DNA of 64,000 nt, from NCBI RefSeq assembly GCF_025452235.1, contig NZ_CP104965.1, positions 2,786,501 through 2,850,500 of the forward strand. Reading direction: 5' to 3'. The translations under genes were made by a program, and so were the position numbers. Within the stretch, counting starts at the first letter, position 1. Every line of letters starts with the position of its first letter. The notes below the pieces were generated by a model. It was given only the letters and a program-made list of their open reading frames with translations, ran no database searches and was not told the origin of the DNA. Positions 19,820 through 39,227 of the stretch are shown here, in pieces. Source of the stretch: Devosia neptuniae (GTDB lineage: Bacteria > Pseudomonadota > Alphaproteobacteria > Rhizobiales > Devosiaceae).

Positions 19820-21040
19820 ATGGGTTCGCCTTTGGCAGCGCGCCTTCGTTCGCCCGCTGTCCGTACCAGTATTTTCTACGCGACCCTGTTTACCTCGGGC
19901 GCGGTCTCCAATCCGTTCCTGCCGATCTGGCTCAGCGAGCGCGGCATCGGCACCGGCGAAATCGGCGTTATCAATGCCGCGCCGATCTTTGCAATGATCG
20001 TCATCAACATGATTGTGGGCCGGCTGGCCGACCGGGCCAGCGACTGGCGCACTGTCATCGTCATCGGTTCCATCATCGCCGCCATCCCGCCAATTTTCCT
20101 GCTGTTCCGGGATGATTATGTCTCCATCTTGATCATCTGGACGCTGCTGATCGTGCCGTTCCAGGCCATCGCCCCGGTGGTCGATGCTGCCGCCTATCGC
20201 ATGACGCGCCGTACCGGCATGGATTTCGGCGCCATCCGCGTCTGGGGCACGATCGGCTTTGTCGCCGTGACGCTGGTGGCGGGCGTAGTGCTCGACCGCA
20301 TGGGCGCAGGAGCCTTCGTGCCGCTGCTCATCGCGGTCAGCCTCCTTCGCGCGCTGGTGTCGCTCGGCCTGCCGCTGTTCCGCTCGCCCGACGAATATTC
20401 GCGCCCCATGCATCCCATCGACGCGCCGATCAATCCGCTGATCGCCATTCGTCTCGGCCAGCTCTGGCGGCCGTGGTTCCTGATGACGCTGATCGGCGCC
20501 GCGCTGCTGCATGGCAGCCACATGATGCAGATGGGCTTTGGCGCACTGATCTGGGCCGAGGAGGGGATACCCGGCTGGGTCATCGGCATATTATGGGCGG
20601 TCGCGCCCACTGCCGAAATCCTCGCCATGGTCTATTTCGAGCGCATCACCAAGCGTTTCGCCGCCCGCCACCTGATCCTGCTCGGCTGCCTTTGCGGCGC
20701 GCTGCGCTGGTGGGGCTTTGCGCTCGAGCCCGATATCTGGGTGCTGGTCCTGCTGCAAACCCTGCATCTGGCGACGGTGGGTCTCACCTTCCTCGGCATC
20801 ACCAATTTCATCGCCAATTGGACCAGCGAGGATATCGCTGCCGAAGCGCAGAGCTTTTTCGTAATGATCCGCCAAGTGGTGACCGTGGTGACCCTGCTGG
20901 GCTTCGGCATCCTTGCCGGCACGATGGGGGCAGGGGCGTTTTACGTCGCGGCCATCCTGAGTGCCATCGGTGCGGTCATGGTGGTGGTGTCGCTGGTGTT
21001 GATGAATCCGAAGCGCGAAAATGCGCAGGTGGTGATTTGA
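19820..21040 (+). CDS. MFS transporter, MFS_1-like (HcaT/LacY-related), copy 1
   Basis: A 406-residue transporter with about 12 transmembrane segments. It resembles the HcaT/nucleoside-symporter branch of the major facilitator superfamily. The loop motif VGRLADRASDWR between helices 2 and 3 and the late motif NWTSEDIAAEAQ are shared with the next gene, marking them as tandem paralogues. GGAG precedes the ATG by 11 bases. The substrate is not predictable. Confidence 0.85.
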   Translation: MGSPLAARLRSPAVRTSIFYATLFTSGAVSNPFLPIWLSERGIGTGEIGVINAAPIFAMIVINMIVGRLADRASDWRTVIVIGSIIAAIPPIFLLFRDDYVSILIIWTLLIVPFQAIAPVVDAAAYRMTRRTGMDFGAIRVWGTIGFVAVTLVAGVVLDRMGAGAFVPLLIAVSLLRALVSLGLPLFRSPDEYSRPMHPIDAPINPLIAIRLGQLWRPWFLMTLIGAALLHGSHMMQMGFGALIWAEEGIPGWVIGILWAVAPTAEILAMVYFERITKRFAARHLILLGCLCGALRWWGFALEPDIWVLVLLQTLHLATVGLTFLGITNFIANWTSEDIAAEAQSFFVMIRQVVTVVTLLGFGILAGTMGAGAFYVAAILSAIGAVMVVVSLVLMNPKRENAQVVI

Positions 21041-21444: not shown

Positions 21445-22626
21445 ATGGCATCCGTTCTGTCGCGCTGGGCCTCGCCCGAGCTGCGCGCTTCGATTTTTCA
21501 TTTCACCGTCTATCTGCCTGGTGCCGTCAGCAGTGTTTATCTGGCGATCTGGCTGGCCGAGCATGGCATTCCCGCCGAGCAGATCGGTGTCATCAATGCC
21601 CTGCCGGTCCTGCTGCTGCTGGGCATCAACATGCTGGTCGGACGGCTGGCCGACCGGGCCAGCGACTGGCGTTCGACCATCCTGATCGTCTCCCTGCTCA
21701 GCGGCGCGGCACCGATCGGGCTGTTCTTCGTCCATGAATTCTGGGGCATCGTGCTGGTCTGGCTGCTCTGCACCATCCCCGGCGGGCTGGTGCCGCCGCT
21801 GACCGACGCGGCGACGTTGCGCCTGGCGCAGCGCACCGGCACCGATTTCGGCAGCATGCGCGCCTGGGGCACGATCGGCTATGTGATCGGCACGGCCTTG
21901 GTGGGTCTCGCCGTCACCGCCTATGGTACGGCCGCTTTCGTGCCGCTGTTCTTCGCCGTTTCGGTGGGCCGGGCGATCATCGGCTTCACCCTGCCGCGCT
22001 TCCGGGCGCCCGCACCGGTCGCCACCCTGGCCGATGCCAATCCGGAAAAGCCGCGTCTGTCTTCCGCCCTCAAGCTCTGGTTCGTACTGCCCATCCTGGG
22101 CTTCGCGCTGGTCAATTCCAACAATGCGGTGGTGGGTGGCTTCGGCGCGCTGATCTGGCACGACAATGGCATTCCCGACTATTTCATCGGCCCCTTGCTC
22201 GCGACTGCCGCCGCTGCCGAAGCCATTCTGATGGTCATGTGGCGGCGTTTTGGCGGGCGCGTCAGTGCGCGCAACATGATCCTGGTGGCCTGCGCGGCCT
22301 CCTTGCTGCGCTTTTTCATCATGGCGTTCAATCCGCCCGTCGCCGTGCTGTTCGTCACCCAGACGCTGCATGCTTTCAGCTTTGGCATGGGGTATTTCGG
22401 CGTGGTGCATTTCATCGCCAATTGGACCAGCGAAGACATTGCCGCCGAAGCGCAGGGCTTTGCCACCATGCTGCAGCAGGGCGCCGCCTTCGTGTCGCTG
22501 ATGCTGTTCGGTGTGCTGGTCAGTCATCTCGGCGCTGGCGCGTTTTTCGCGTCTGCGCTGTTTGCGCTGCTAGGCATGGGATGTGTGTTGTGGTCGCTGA
22601 AGCTCAAACCACCCAAGGATGCGTGA
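21445..22626 (+). CDS. MFS transporter, MFS_1-like (HcaT/LacY-related), copy 2
   Basis: A 393-residue paralogue of the preceding transporter, with the same VGRLADRASDWR loop and the NWTSEDIAAEAQ segment before helix 11. The N-terminal half also aligns (PELRASIFHFTVYLPGAVSSVYLAIWL against PAVRTSIFYATLFTSGAVSNPFLPIWL in copy 1). No Shine-Dalgarno sequence is obvious before the ATG at 21445. The 404-base gap filled by a repeat suggests independent expression. The function is unknown beyond proton-coupled import or export of a small organic molecule. Confidence 0.85.
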   Translation: MASVLSRWASPELRASIFHFTVYLPGAVSSVYLAIWLAEHGIPAEQIGVINALPVLLLLGINMLVGRLADRASDWRSTILIVSLLSGAAPIGLFFVHEFWGIVLVWLLCTIPGGLVPPLTDAATLRLAQRTGTDFGSMRAWGTIGYVIGTALVGLAVTAYGTAAFVPLFFAVSVGRAIIGFTLPRFRAPAPVATLADANPEKPRLSSALKLWFVLPILGFALVNSNNAVVGGFGALIWHDNGIPDYFIGPLLATAAAAEAILMVMWRRFGGRVSARNMILVACAASLLRFFIMAFNPPVAVLFVTQTLHAFSFGMGYFGVVHFIANWTSEDIAAEAQGFATMLQQGAAFVSLMLFGVLVSHLGAGAFFASALFALLGMGCVLWSLKLKPPKDA

Positions 22627-22869: not shown

Positions 22870-25800
22870 TTAGCTCAAGCGGCCGCTCGCATGGGCCAGG
22901 GTCGTGTAGACCTTGCCGCGATCGCTCAGCAGGTATTCGCGGGTCTCCGCAGCAGGGCGGGGGCCGGCGGCGGCGCGTTTCAGCAGCTGCTCGAACTCGC
23001 TCATATAGGCCTGCGCGGTGCGGGCGAAGTCGGGTTCGCGCTGCAGCTTCTTGCGCACGTCGTCATAGGTGCCCTGGCCGGTCAGCGTATAGATGCGGCG
23101 CGAGAACACGTTGGACTCGCCGGCCTGGTAGCGGGCCCAGGCTTCGGCCAGCGCGGCGTCGTCGATGGCCCGGGCAATCTCGTCGGTCAGGCCCGACAGA
23201 CCGGCCTGCGGCTGGGTGCTGGCCTGCTTGGCCGTGGCATTGCGCAACACGTCGCGGAGCCAGCCGCCTTCGCCCTGCGGGGCGGCATCGGCTTCCACCG
23301 CTGCCTGGGCATCCACGTCGCGCTGCGGCGCTGCGGCACGGGCAGGTTCGGGCTGACGAACAGGTTCAGGCTGGCGCACGGGCTCGGTGGTGCGGATCGG
23401 GTCGACCAGCGTCTGGCGCGGCGGCTCGCGATAGGTGTCGCGCGGGGCCTGATAGGCCGGGGCTTCCTGGCGCGGTTCAGTGCGCGGGGCAGGGCGCTGC
23501 GGCGGGCGGCGGTCGTTGAGGTCGAGCGTGGCCGGCTGGCTGCGCACGATGGCATTGAGTTCGCTCAGCGCCTCGATCTGCTCGGCCACGACGCGGCGCA
23601 TGGCAGCGGCACTGGCGCGGGTTTCCTCGGGCAGCTCGTTGACGCCGCGAGCCAGTTCGGCGCGGGTGGCTTCGAGTTCGCTGCCCACTTCCTTGGCCGT
23701 CTGGCGCATGGCCCGCGCAGTGTCGTTGAAGCGCTGGGTGGCTTCTTCCATCGCCTTCTGCATTTCGGCGATCATCTGCTGCTGCGCTTGCTGCAGGGCC
23801 GCATTGGCGCGGCGACCTTCGGCATCGGCACTGTCGCGGAAATCGCCGAGACGGCTGCTGACTTCGCCCGAAGTTTCGTCCAGTGCCTGGCGGAACGTGC
23901 CGGTGGTCTGGTCGATGGCGTTGCGCAGCTGGCCGGTATTGGAGGCAATCGCCCCACGAACAGAAGCGGTCGAATCCGCAATGGTGTCGGCCAGCGTGCT
24001 GGTCGTCGTGGTCAGCACATCGGTGACATTGCCGGCGGTCGAAGCCAGCACGTCACTGACGCGGTTGGCGTTTTCTTCCAGTGCGTTGTTGACCTGGCTG
24101 GTCTGATCGCTGAGCGCCAGGCGAACCGAGGAGGCCGTCTGGTTGAGCGCATTGGCGGCAGCTTCGGCGGCACGCTGCACGGCGCCATCGACCTGGGCGG
24201 CATTGCTCGACAGGGTCGAGGTGAACCGCTGGTTGGTCTGGTAGAGCGCGTCGTTGACATCGGCGGTCGAGGACTGGATGGCCTCGGTAATGGTTGCCGT
24301 GGTGGCTTCCAGCGTTTCGGCAACCGAGCCGGTGGTGGCCTGCAGGGCCTCGTCCATGGCGCGGCGGGCGCCGATCAAACGGCGTTCCGTGTCATTGACC
24401 GTATCGGCGATCGACTGCGCGAACATGCGCATGCGGCCATCGATATCGTCGGCGCGGCTGGCAAAGCTCTGGGCTAGGGCATCCATGGCGCCGCGGCGAT
24501 CTTCGAGCGTAATAAGAGCGGTTTCGCTGGTCGAGCTGAGCTCGTGCGACACCTGCTGCATATTGGCTGCTTCCGCATCGAGCCGGCCGAGCACGGTCGA
24601 GAATTCGTCGACCATGGAGCGGATGGTGGATTGCAGCGCGCCAACATGCTGGCTGACCATGACGCCGGCCTGTTCGGTCTGCCCGATGGCATCGCGAATG
24701 GTGTTGGAATAGGTCGAGGTCTGCTGGGCGACTGATGTCTCGAGATTGGCCAGGTTTGCCGTCGAGGCATCGAGCACCCGCTGCAGCAGCAGGTTCGAGT
24801 CATTGAGCTTGCCGAGCGCGGCGGTGACATCGGTGAGGATGCGCGAGGTCGAGACGGCCATGATGGCCTCGGCTTCCTTGGCATTCTCGCCCAGGGCGTC
24901 GCGCAGCAGATTACCATGGCTGAGCAGGGCGTTCTGCAACTGGTCGGAGCGATCGCTGACCAGAGCCGCAAAGGCATTGGTATGCTCTTCGACCGAGCGA
25001 TTGATGTCGGTGAGGCGGGTTTCGATCGAGCCCACGGCGTCAGGCGCCTTGACGGTCAGCAATTGATCGATATTACCCGCAGCAGCGCGGATCAGGTCGA
25101 GCACATTGCGCACCGCGCCGTCCATGCGGTCGGCCGTGGCGGTGACGTCGGTGGCGATATTTTCCGTCGCTGCCGTGATGCGGGTCGCGATGGTTTCCTC
25201 GATCCGGTCGGCGCCGGCTTCGAGATCCGCCATGGACTGGGTGATCGAGGTATTGATCGAGGCGTTGAGCGCGGCCAGCCGTTCGGCCGTGATATCGGCA
25301 CGGGCGGTGATGGCCTCGGGCAGGGTGCCCAGGCGCTGGTCGACCATGTCGGTAATGGCGCGACGAGCCGAATTGACGCCGCTCTCGATGAGGTCGGCGG
25401 CCTTGCGGGCGCTTTCGCCCACGGTGGCGCTGGCCGCGTCGATGCGGGCGGACACGCCATGCTCGGCGTCGGAAATGCGCGAAATAGCGCTGTCGAGGCC
25501 GGTGCCCAGATGCGTGTTCACCTCGGCCACCTTCTCGGCGATCATGTCCGACATGGTGGTGACGCGCTCGTTCATCGTCTCGGTGACATTGTGCAGCGAG
25601 GTTTCGATCTTGGTGCGGGCTTCTTCGCCCTGCAGCGCAATGGCGTCGGCCAGTTCGCTGGTGCGCAGGCCGATGGTTTCGCCCATCGAGGCGGTGTGCG
25701 TTTCCAGCGTGTCGCTGAGTGCCTGGGTGCGCTGATTGAGGGCTTCGCTGAGCGCCAGGGTGCGGGTGCCCACGGCCTGGGCCAACTGCTGGGTGCCGCT

Positions 25801-28254
25801 GTCGAGCGTGGTGCGCAGCTGCGCCGAGCGTTCGTCCAGCGCGCCGGTCAGCGTGGTGGTGTGATCGGCCAATTGGCTGGTCAGCGTTTCGGTGCGCTCG
25901 CTGAGCTGAGTGGCCAGCAATTCGGTGCGTTCATCGAGCTGGCTGGCCAGGTTCCCGGTGCGGGATTCGATTTCCAGCGCCAGCGCCGAGGTGCGTTCCG
26001 ATAGCGTATCGGCCAGCCGCGTGGTGCGGCCCGAGATCGCCTGGTCGAATTCGGAGGTGCCGGCCGAAAGGGCGTCGCCCAGTTCCTGGCTGCGCACGCG
26101 GATGGCTTCGCTCATATCGGTGGCGCGGGTGCTGAGCGTTTCGTCCAGTTCGAGCACGCGGGTTTCGATGGCGCTGGTGATTTCGCCGGCGCGGCTGCTC
26201 AGAATGCCGTCGAGCTTCTGGGTGCGGCCGTCGAGGGTTTCGGCGAGCTGGCTGACATGGCCTTCAAGCGAAGCCGCGAGGGCCTGGCTGCGGCTACCAA
26301 TGTCTTCGGAAATGGCGCGGGCCTTGGCGCCCAGCACTTCGCCCAGTTCGCGGGTCTTTTCGCTAATGGCGCTGTCAAAGCGGCCGGATTCTTCGTTGAG
26401 CGCCATTTCGAGCACATTGGCGCGGGCGGCGAAGCTGGTGCCCTGCGCTTCAAGGCGCGCGATCAGGCTATCGCCCTTGTCGCCGATAACGCCATCGAGC
26501 GTGCCCAGGCGGGTGTCGAGAATGGCAGCGATTTCGGTCAGCCGGGCATCGAACTGGCTGAGCGAATCCTGGCCGGCAGAGGAGAGGGTGATGCGGGCGC
26601 GGTCGGACGTGTCGTCCAGCGCCCCGTTGATTTCGATCAGCGCCGATTGCAGGCGGCTATCCATGGCGTTGAGCTGGATGGACACCGATTCATCGAGCTG
26701 GCGGGTGAGGGCATTGAGCAGCACCTCGGCTTCGCGCGAGCGGCCGGTAATGTCGTCGGCAATCTTTTGGCCAATCAGGTCCAGCGCGCCGGTCACTTCA
26801 TGGCCGCGGTCGCGCAATTGGCCGAGCAGGGAGGTGCTGCCATCGCTGAGCAGGCCCGAAATGGTCGCGGTGCGTTCGTCGAGCGCGGTGGCGAGACGAC
26901 CGGTGGTTTCGTCGAGCGTTTCGGACAGGCGGCCGGTCGTGCCATCCAGCAGGTTGGCGAGCTTTTCGGCGCGAGCGTCGAAGGCCGACGCCAGGTTGCC
27001 GGTGCGGCTGTCCATCGCCTCGGCGATGCGGCCGCTGGTGCCTTCGAGCAGGCCCGCCAGGTTCGCCGTGCGGTCTTCGAAGCTGCCGGCAATGGCGCCG
27101 GTGCGTTCCTCGATCAGCCGGGTGCGCTCATCCATGGCGGCGGCGATGGTGGAGGCATGGCCGTCAAGGGCGTCGGTCAGCGCGGCAATGCGGCCTTCAA
27201 CGCCGGCATTGAGCGTGCCGGCACGCTCGTCGAGGGCGCCGGTCATGGCCGCGGTCTTGTCGTCGAAGGTCAGCGACAGGCGGCCGGCGCTATCGTCGAG
27301 CGCCGAAATGAAGTCGGTGGTGCGGTTGTCGACCAGCGAGACGAAATTCTCCGTCCGCTCGCCAAAGGCGTTGGTCAGCGTATTGCCGGCGGTTTCGAGC
27401 GCGCGCGTCAGGTTGCCGCCGCTTTCCACGATGGTGCCGGAAATGCGCTGGCTGATCATGTCGAGGTCGAACACCAGGCCCGTATGGCTCTCGGTGATGG
27501 CTTCGCGCACGCGTTCGGTATTGGTCAAAACGCTTTCGCGCTGGCTGGCCAGTTCGGCGATCAGCGCCCGCATGCGCGATTCATTGTCCGAATAGGTGCG
27601 TTCGAGCGCGGTGACCTCGTTGTGGATCATCACTTCGAGCTCGCCGGCGCGCGACAAAGCGCGTTCCAGCCCGTCGCCCAGCGCATTGACTTCGCGGCGC
27701 ACGGCCTGCCCCACCGAAGCGACCTTGTCGGCAGCGGTGACTTCGGGTTCGGCTAGGCGGATGGCGGCCTGGGTGATCGAGGAGGCTGCGTTGCGCAGGT
27801 CCTGGGCACGGCGGAACAGAGTGGCGACGCCGAAAAAGCCCAGCACGGGGAGGATCATGATGGCGGCGAGCGCGATGAAATCGATGCTGCTGGCAAACTG
27901 GCCGAAATTGCTGAGCTGGCTGCCATAGCGCAGATAACCGGCTGCGCCCGTAGCCACGAGCCAGATGATCGAGAGTGCCAGCGCTACCCAGGTGGGAGCC
28001 GAGGATGAACGGCTCTGCAGCGTATACAGCAGCTTGGAGGTGGGGAAGCGATCGTCATTGGCCACGGCGCCGGCCTGCTGGGCGATCTTATCGGCGGCGC
28101 GCAGGCGCTCTGACCGCGCAGGATTGGCCGTGCGCTTTTCCGGGGCCTTTTCCGGCGCGCTGTCGAGATTGAAGACCGAGTCCTTGAGGGCGTCTTCAAC
28201 GGCAGAAAAAGCCAGGGCGGCGGGATCGTTTGGGGGTGTCGAATTCTGCGCCAT
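22870..28254 (-). CDS. Giant polar coiled-coil protein, growth pole ring (GPR)-like
   Basis: A 1,794-residue protein. In order: a charged, disordered N-terminus; two membrane helices at about 88-110 and 125-148; a coiled stalk to about 1,570; a Pro/Arg-rich linker at about 1,575-1,660; and a compact C-terminal domain containing ALAEAWARYQAGESNVFSRR. The stalk contains three long tracts of 11-residue repeats of type xxRTxxLxxxL. Size, architecture and apolipoprotein-like repeats match the growth pole ring protein of Agrobacterium, which forms a ring at the growing pole and organises unipolar growth. The ATG at 28254 is used; the longer frame to 28299 lacks support. Automatic labels such as kinesin would be misleading. 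The identity is inferred from architecture, not alignment. Confidence 0.82.
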   Translation of the reverse strand: MAQNSTPPNDPAALAFSAVEDALKDSVFNLDSAPEKAPEKRTANPARSERLRAADKIAQQAGAVANDDRFPTSKLLYTLQSRSSSAPTWVALALSIIWLVATGAAGYLRYGSQLSNFGQFASSIDFIALAAIMILPVLGFFGVATLFRRAQDLRNAASSITQAAIRLAEPEVTAADKVASVGQAVRREVNALGDGLERALSRAGELEVMIHNEVTALERTYSDNESRMRALIAELASQRESVLTNTERVREAITESHTGLVFDLDMISQRISGTIVESGGNLTRALETAGNTLTNAFGERTENFVSLVDNRTTDFISALDDSAGRLSLTFDDKTAAMTGALDERAGTLNAGVEGRIAALTDALDGHASTIAAAMDERTRLIEERTGAIAGSFEDRTANLAGLLEGTSGRIAEAMDSRTGNLASAFDARAEKLANLLDGTTGRLSETLDETTGRLATALDERTATISGLLSDGSTSLLGQLRDRGHEVTGALDLIGQKIADDITGRSREAEVLLNALTRQLDESVSIQLNAMDSRLQSALIEINGALDDTSDRARITLSSAGQDSLSQFDARLTEIAAILDTRLGTLDGVIGDKGDSLIARLEAQGTSFAARANVLEMALNEESGRFDSAISEKTRELGEVLGAKARAISEDIGSRSQALAASLEGHVSQLAETLDGRTQKLDGILSSRAGEITSAIETRVLELDETLSTRATDMSEAIRVRSQELGDALSAGTSEFDQAISGRTTRLADTLSERTSALALEIESRTGNLASQLDERTELLATQLSERTETLTSQLADHTTTLTGALDERSAQLRTTLDSGTQQLAQAVGTRTLALSEALNQRTQALSDTLETHTASMGETIGLRTSELADAIALQGEEARTKIETSLHNVTETMNERVTTMSDMIAEKVAEVNTHLGTGLDSAISRISDAEHGVSARIDAASATVGESARKAADLIESGVNSARRAITDMVDQRLGTLPEAITARADITAERLAALNASINTSITQSMADLEAGADRIEETIATRITAATENIATDVTATADRMDGAVRNVLDLIRAAAGNIDQLLTVKAPDAVGSIETRLTDINRSVEEHTNAFAALVSDRSDQLQNALLSHGNLLRDALGENAKEAEAIMAVSTSRILTDVTAALGKLNDSNLLLQRVLDASTANLANLETSVAQQTSTYSNTIRDAIGQTEQAGVMVSQHVGALQSTIRSMVDEFSTVLGRLDAEAANMQQVSHELSSTSETALITLEDRRGAMDALAQSFASRADDIDGRMRMFAQSIADTVNDTERRLIGARRAMDEALQATTGSVAETLEATTATITEAIQSSTADVNDALYQTNQRFTSTLSSNAAQVDGAVQRAAEAAANALNQTASSVRLALSDQTSQVNNALEENANRVSDVLASTAGNVTDVLTTTTSTLADTIADSTASVRGAIASNTGQLRNAIDQTTGTFRQALDETSGEVSSRLGDFRDSADAEGRRANAALQQAQQQMIAEMQKAMEEATQRFNDTARAMRQTAKEVGSELEATRAELARGVNELPEETRASAAAMRRVVAEQIEALSELNAIVRSQPATLDLNDRRPPQRPAPRTEPRQEAPAYQAPRDTYREPPRQTLVDPIRTTEPVRQPEPVRQPEPARAAAPQRDVDAQAAVEADAAPQGEGGWLRDVLRNATAKQASTQPQAGLSGLTDEIARAIDDAALAEAWARYQAGESNVFSRRIYTLTGQGTYDDVRKKLQREPDFARTAQAYMSEFEQLLKRAAAGPRPAAETREYLLSDRGKVYTTLAHASGRLS

Positions 28255-28613: not shown

Positions 28614-29009
28614 ATGGCCCAGCGGTTCCCCGCGCTCGACAGAGCCAGTCCTGTCCTTGCCCCGCGCCGGGCGCGCCCCATCGATCTGGTGTATTTGGCC
28701 AAGCAATGCCTGGGCGATGCCGCGCTGGAACACGAAATGCTACGCCTGTTCGACACCACGATCCAAACTTACCTGACGCGGCTCCTCGCCGCCGAGGCTC
28801 CCGATCAGGTCCTGTTCACCCTCCACACCATCAAAGGCGCCGCCGCCGGCGTGGGCGCATTCGCCATAGCCGATCTCGCTAAAGCCATGGAAGCGGACGC
28901 CAGGGCCGGGATGAGCACCAATCCCGAGCAGTTGGACGACCTCAAAATAGCGGTGGAGGAAGTTAGCGTGTTTGTTGAGGACGTGCTGAGCAAGGATATG
29001 CGGGCGTAG
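28614..29009 (+). CDS. Hpt domain phosphotransfer protein
   Basis: A 131-residue protein with one histidine phosphotransfer domain. The phosphoaccepting His is about residue 71 in LHTIKGAAAGVGA, which matches the Hpt consensus HTLKGxxxxxGA with the essential Lys three residues later. About 25 disordered residues precede the four-helix bundle. It would relay phosphate between a hybrid kinase and a response regulator; no kinase is in the window. Divergent transcription from the GPR-like gene raises a possible link with polar or cell-cycle signalling. AAGGAG stands before the ATG. Confidence 0.88.
   Translation: MAQRFPALDRASPVLAPRRARPIDLVYLAKQCLGDAALEHEMLRLFDTTIQTYLTRLLAAEAPDQVLFTLHTIKGAAAGVGAFAIADLAKAMEADARAGMSTNPEQLDDLKIAVEEVSVFVEDVLSKDMRA

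Positions 29010-38084: not shown

Positions 38085-39227
<1,143 letters not shown>

Follow-up and report, generated by a model that had tools for sequence, protein, structure and literature searches.

A GPR/RgsE-type polar scaffold candidate in Devosia and its probable kinship with the pole landmark TipN

The growth pole ring protein GPR (Atu1348) of Agrobacterium has been described as forming six foci, arranged as a ring close to the growing tip (PMC8262873), and both it and RgsE (SMc00190) of Sinorhizobium are reported to be needed for rod shape (PMC8262873, PMC7327166). Removal of 221 or 332 residues from the C terminus of GPR blocks complementation, although the version lacking 332 still forms paired foci (PMC8262873). 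The two-hybrid partners given for RgsE are TolQ, RgsA and, weakly, RgsS (PMC7327166). TipN, which localises to the new pole and the septum, is described as a landmark of the new pole with ParA among its partners (PMC5182065); it also interacts with Tol-Pal and is retained at the new pole (PMC7403779). The Tol-Pal link common to RgsE and TipN would fit a single family. GPR has been said to have similarity to TipN (PMC8546619), TipN has been called analogous (PMC13170164), and most alphaproteobacterial genomes are stated not to encode TipN (PMC5182065). Our literature searches for TipN together with RgsE, or by locus tags, found no paper, and those on Devosia and polar growth gave unrelated papers only. 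Thus, the relation between GPR and TipN has been hinted at in print, and what we add is the profile evidence, a C-terminal domain common to the whole family, and bridging proteins.

We analysed a window of 64,000 nucleotides from Devosia neptuniae (contig NZ_CP104965.1), which lies in a host genome of 4.7 Mb on two contigs. A preliminary description, made from the letters alone, had placed a GPR-like protein of 1,794 residues here without giving its strand; we find an intact gene that reads from an ATG on the minus strand without internal stops (Table 1), and its MA(K/Q/N)... N terminus is alike in homologues among the matches listed. The nearest contigs come from Devosia strains and a Rhizobiales isolate, at 96-100% in the best segment. 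Comparison of the window locus with contigs recovered 77 related loci, mostly of Devosia. The 62 of these loci with an intact C end mostly carry open frames of 1,394 to 2,346 aa, the exceptions being the shorter frames of L054 and L013 and one of 2,705 aa in the distant L077. Identity to the window is 86% in L002 and 49% in L138 for the C-terminal domain, and 76% and 27% in the same two loci for the stalk. The longest frames of L013, L034, L043 and L054 either fall below those of other Devosia loci or finish in a different reading frame, a pattern that either frame-shifted records or real breaks would produce. Antisense to the gene, on the plus strand, run long open frames at 22891-24477 (528 aa), 25910-27595 (561 aa) and 26257-27756 (499 aa), which probably arise as a side effect of the high GC content and of the repeat. 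Database records label homologues as 'Kinesin-like protein' (P0008, P0147) or 'apolipoprotein A1/A4/E domain-containing protein' (P0002); both misannotations anticipated in the preliminary description therefore occur, but its 'usually' was too strong, as most homologues among the matches listed are nameless or 'hypothetical protein'.

The architecture anticipated from the letters, namely two N-terminal membrane helices, an apolipoprotein-like stalk, a Pro-rich linker and a compact C-terminal domain, held in each of its parts. Two hydropathy peaks near the N terminus correspond to the membrane helices. They are followed by a helical stalk of about 1,350 residues with a hydrophobic period of 3.66 residues, i.e. 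11/3, whose power of 99.0 compares with a maximum of 10.8 in 200 shuffles and whose autocorrelation is 0.44, 0.37 and 0.35 at lags 11, 22 and 33. Such 11/3 periodicity occurs in apolipoproteins, and the 11-residue repeat explains the match of the full protein to the apolipoprotein family PF01442 (E 7.8e-54; 182.7 bits summed over nine stretches, against a cut-off of 90). The specificity of this match is low, since no single piece exceeded the cut-off in the piecewise genome search and weak matches turn up in 7 of 14 control genomes. No motor family, kinesin included, is among the seven Pfam matches of the whole protein at E up to 1. The linker accounts for 17 of the 35 prolines, with two in residues 200-1540. 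An AlphaFold2 model of the C-terminal domain has six helices at a mean pLDDT of 88.0, with at least 90 in 100 of 122 residues. Neither sequence search nor fold search gave a close solved structure for this domain, which does not amount to a new fold; it is also without a model in the Pfam and NCBIfam copies searched, and newer Pfam accessions such as PF28217 are listed on relatives in the protein database.

Table 1. Positions in the window of the gpr/rgsE-type gene, its encoded parts and its neighbours
Feature	Position	Strand	Basis
gpr/rgsE-type gene, 1,794 aa	22870..28254	-	intact frame; stop codon 22870-22872
First membrane helix, about residues 83-108	27931..28008	-	hydropathy
Second membrane helix region, about residues 117-150	27805..27906	-	hydropathy
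Hendecad (11-residue) helical stalk, residues 186-1534 as measured	23653..27699	-	period 3.66; PF01442 stretches
Pro-rich linker, residues 1574-1650	23305..23535	-	17 of 35 prolines
Linker Trp motif WLRDVLR, residues 1665-1671	23242..23262	-	motif scan
C-terminal six-helix domain, residues 1683-1794	22873..23208	-	profile matches, AlphaFold2
Divergent Hpt-domain gene, conserved neighbour	28614..29009	+	Pfam Hpt E 6e-11
MFS_1_like transporter, neighbour type common to tipN locus	19820..21040	+	Pfam, locus comparison
Second MFS_1_like transporter	21445..22626	+	Pfam, locus comparison

The C-terminal 135 residues match Rhizobiaceae-type homologues at 43-52% identity with E-values from 4e-35 to 6e-33. 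These include proteins from a Rhizobiaceae MAG (P0068, E 4e-35), from Pseudochrobactrum (P0060, 44% identity, E 8e-35) and from a Nitratireductor MAG (P0076, E 2e-33), as well as L138 (E 2.5e-34) and L141 (E 6e-33) of family f23, which we take for Rhizobiaceae. No Agrobacterium-named protein is among the matches listed from the protein database (48 and 120 rows). Profile A1 recovers the domain in 379 of the 397 genomes of the order, including 334 of 341 good ones, and by our count just 8 of the 379 have two domain matches. Four genomes of one genus (G251, G325, G350 and G362; family f31, genus g113) have a second, more divergent copy of the domain, which in three of them sits on a frame of 443-456 aa. 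Sequence, copy number and gene place together argue for orthology with GPR/RgsE, and the suspected GPR homology is upheld by the agreement of the C-terminal matches, the architecture and the divergent Hpt neighbour. Hence, the identification of the Devosia gene as a GPR/RgsE-type homologue, made at the sequence level through Rhizobiaceae-type relatives and likened to Agrobacterium GPR by its published description, may be regarded as well supported. Homologues have been published for all families of the Rhizobiales, among which MreB is mostly absent (PMC7327166), so the gene is an ordinary, expected orthologue, and the expectation in the preliminary description, that a homologue here would carry ring-based growth into a further lineage, is not supported as something new.

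We observed that the Hpt gene is encoded divergently upstream of gpr in 57 of the 63 longer Devosia-type loci, and in 69 loci in all by tblastn; Pfam also places one at L138:3900-4331, L141:3507-3959 and L142:7319-7693, with a ferredoxin gene beyond it in each. An HxxKG-type motif is kept in the Hpt gene of 57 of the 69 loci, and a phosphorelay tie between this neighbour and the growth pole might be entertained. On the other side of gpr, two MFS_1_like genes adjoin it in tandem. A matching transporter lies beside the gene in 59 of the 63 longer Devosia-type loci, all five of L138-L142 and six of the eight Caulobacteraceae loci, and in none of the 15 loci L143-L157; the far relatives are 24-37% identical to the transporters of the window. 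Sulfate-assimilation genes of the siroheme synthase and sulfite reductase types also lie near gpr in the window, and a reductase gene at 38202-39227 is related to the reductase of L138. As sulfate genes adjoin tipN in only two of the eight Caulobacteraceae loci (L189 by Pfam, L190 by tblastn), we set them aside as a shared tipN/gpr neighbourhood. An Mla-type phospholipid transport operon (MlaE, ATPase and MlaD, with an auxiliary lipoprotein in seven of eight) adjoins the gene in the eight loci L138-L145, among them two families from outside the order; with none in the 63 Devosia-type loci, it was likewise set aside as a general feature. Elsewhere in the host genome, outside the window, are two tandem full-length MipZ genes (L163 and L164; G000:C2:3206874-3208583; E 2.3e-95 and 8.6e-96).

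Across the class, profile A1 detected the C-terminal domain in 141 of 385 genomes, or 136 of the 380 outside the order. The domain stands at or near the frame end in the fetched loci, with 14 residues following it in L126. Twenty longer stretches were scanned, among which the frame of L140 is cut by the contig end and that of L151 runs into another gene; a simple scan of the rest gave two membrane helices in most and one only in L144, L145, L146, L154 and L155. When 150 genomes were drawn from the phylum, the domain matched 32 of 38 alphaproteobacteria and none of 112 others, 98 of the non-matching genomes being counted as non-alphaproteobacterial from kinship-sorted rows. Family f74 (L153, G418, G549, G646, G724 and G955) has frames of 330-377 aa that the C-terminal profile matches with E-values from 1e-8 to 9e-5, with two membrane helices in L153; these are possibly miniature forms almost devoid of a stalk. 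A protein of family f61 from outside the order (L143) has a 751-aa frame whose C-terminal domain is 45% identical to that of the window (E 2e-25), and it combines the Trp motif, Mla neighbours and MreB. The C-domain tree joins f61 and f172 to the proteins of the order with support 97/97, and by its sequence f61 appears to bridge the latter and TipN.

To reach TipN itself, we selected 80 Caulobacteraceae by MipZ, the MipZ of G850 being 100% identical to the solved Caulobacter protein over 262 residues. A wider profile, A3, matched 52 of the 80 at E up to 1e-3 by our count and 55 at E up to 1, with a best E-value of 8e-16, and gave no match at all in 25. The G850 match (E 2.4e-9) falls on a frame of 882 aa from the first ATG, whose product is 99% identical to P0167, a record bearing the name polar localization protein TipN, and 882 aa is also the length published for TipN (PMC13170164). 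Profile-profile (HMM-HMM) comparisons were made among sets of 77 sequences from the order, 13 from elsewhere in the class and 8 from Caulobacteraceae, E-values being those of single comparisons. At the C end the order matches TipN with a probability of 95.6 (E 1.3e-8), the other class set matches TipN with 98.4 (E 1e-14), and the order and the other class set match each other with 99.9 (E 5e-34); at the N end the order and the other class set match TipN with 97.5 (E 8e-12) and 98.8 (E 1e-16), respectively. Mid-stalk and crossed controls reached at most 47, and reversed sequences stayed below 8 (0.5 for the reversed N end). The Trp motif before the C-terminal domain is present in 76 of the 77 order sequences, all eight from Caulobacteraceae and 3 of the 13 from elsewhere in the class, by a pattern derived by eye from a small number of the sequences on which it was scored; it held for 71 of 113 further TipN-type proteins and was seen in none of 1,960 background windows, which were drawn from Trp-poor stalks. 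Most likely, therefore, to judge from these sequence comparisons, GPR/RgsE and TipN have diverged within a single family of polar scaffolds in Alphaproteobacteria.

MreB was not detected in the host genome at E 1e-40, which is compatible with polar growth. It is present in 44 of the 397 genomes of the order (E up to 1e-40) and in 69 of the 70 class genomes tested. Frame lengths were obtained for 229 of the 397 order genomes (150 listed and 80 chosen), a biased sample whose members are kin and not independent, so that a Mann-Whitney P from it is not a probability. With frames below 700 aa dropped as likely fragments (4 with MreB, 12 without), the 39 frames kept from genomes with MreB have a median of 1,081 aa and a maximum of 1,498, and the 174 from genomes without it a median of 1,947 aa, with 25 below 1,500. 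Frames of at least 1,500 aa also occur in 16 of the 70 class genomes, all with MreB. Long frames thus go with MreB loss inside the order and not outside it; given the short frames without MreB and the long class frames with it, a strict link between stalk length and MreB loss was rejected as a rule, and growth mode is not closely coupled to length. The hydrophobic stalk period is 3.59-3.595 in three Caulobacteraceae proteins, 3.565-3.62 in seven others of the class, and 3.66-3.665 in four Devosia-type or near loci, L077, L142 and P0035.

Taken together, we consider it probable that the window encodes a Devosia orthologue of GPR/RgsE acting as a new-pole scaffold in a MreB-less cell and forming one family with TipN. 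The basis of this explanation is the architecture, the homology, the one copy, the conserved neighbour, the absence of detected MreB and the profile link to TipN; for Devosia, we infer the ring, polar growth, the binding of partners and the orientation in the membrane. The most likely role suggested by the sequence would be that of a membrane-anchored scaffold for MreB-independent polar growth. The two membrane helices would anchor the protein by its N-terminal part to the inner membrane, while the stalk of 11-residue repeats may form a rod or bundle in the cytoplasm, whose length would be about 200 nm for a single straight helix rising 0.15 nm with each residue. The flexible linker with its Trp motif would then present the small six-helix domain, which might bind partners. 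The division of labour would be one in which the N-terminal module places the protein, the stalk spaces and the C-terminal domain binds, and the assembled scaffold could mark the new pole and hold envelope-building enzymes there.

Other readings deserve consideration. The protein could be a true family member that in Devosia serves as a TipN-like landmark, for pole identity and the placement of chromosome or flagellum, and not as a scaffold of wall growth. TipN is itself a ParA-interacting new-pole landmark (PMC5182065), and, as the family spans MreB-containing bacteria such as 69 of the 70 class genomes, its original role cannot have been MreB-free growth; yet the closest studied relatives, GPR and RgsE, are needed for rod shape (PMC8262873, PMC7327166) and the host lacks a detected MreB, which leaves this reading rather unlikely. 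We think it improbable that the stalk is an apolipoprotein-like surface lying on lipid, with the gathering or holding of polar lipid as its main job in place of a protein rod: the PF01442 match, the 11/3 periodicity and the Mla-type operon in L138-L145 speak for it, but the same period also suits a hendecad coiled coil, PF01442 is weakly matched in unrelated genomes too, and the Mla neighbours are missing from the Devosia-type loci.

A similarly low likelihood attaches to convergence as the source of the TipN link, with a pair of membrane helices, a coil and a short alpha-helical tail having arisen twice. It draws on a BLASTP search in which the window C end met TipN at E 1.4, on the long branch (2.33) and unsure place of the TipN C-terminal domains in the tree, and on a TipN structure model whose pLDDT of about 46-64 over the C-terminal domain is too weak for fold comparison. 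Against this, both ends match independently by HMM-HMM while every reversed, crossed and mid-stalk control stays below a probability of 50, the Trp motif occupies the same place and is absent from the background windows, the 112 non-alphaproteobacterial genomes are free of profile matches, and the f61 protein forms a bridge. That the protein is a generic coiled coil, GPR-like by composition alone, is scarcely credible: the Pfam match taken by itself would be unspecific enough to allow it, but the C-terminal homology lies outside the repeat and the gene neighbour is conserved, and as to homology we regard this reading as already refuted.

Returning to the scaffold interpretation, it may tentatively be extended to propose that GPR is an elongated TipN. 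An ancestral alphaproteobacterial landmark of the new pole, whose ends stayed fixed while its stalk could change in length and repeat type, would have become a wall-growth scaffold upon the loss of MreB in Hyphomicrobiales, with stalk length setting the size of the ring or its distance from the tip; a straight stalk would be about 75 nm long in TipN, against about 200 nm in Devosia. While the gene itself is the expected orthologue with good sequence support, the broader family link is the wider result: two separately studied polarity proteins are tied together through two conserved ends, the passage from a landmark of the pole to a scaffold of growth becomes open to experiment, and the published view that TipN is missing from most alphaproteobacteria (PMC5182065) is called into question.

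With respect to known systems, the Devosia protein agrees with the published descriptions of GPR and RgsE (PMC8262873, PMC7327166) in its pair of membrane helices at the N terminus, its long helical stalk matching PF01442, its Pro-rich region and its C-terminal tail. It differs from them in length (1,794 aa against 2,115 in GPR and 2,089 in RgsE), in a stalk that is purely hendecad (period 3.66, where three Rhizobiaceae-type proteins have 3.635-3.655) and in the lack of the Mla neighbours of Rhizobiaceae-type loci. The f61/f172 proteins (L143, L144 and L145) have the C-terminal domain (45% in L143), the Trp motif and Mla neighbours as in Rhizobiaceae-type loci, but come from outside the order, have frames of 727-875 aa and occur with MreB. 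TipN has the same membrane-helix N-terminal module, a coil, the Trp motif and, by profile, the C-terminal domain; it differs in its 882 aa, a stalk period of about 3.595 that is not an 11-residue repeat, a C-terminal domain of 25% identity, and a life alongside MreB. Eukaryotic apolipoprotein A has the same type of 11-residue amphipathic helical repeat, whereas the membrane helices and an unrelated C-terminal domain set the Devosia protein apart from the apolipoprotein A and kinesin of the annotation labels.
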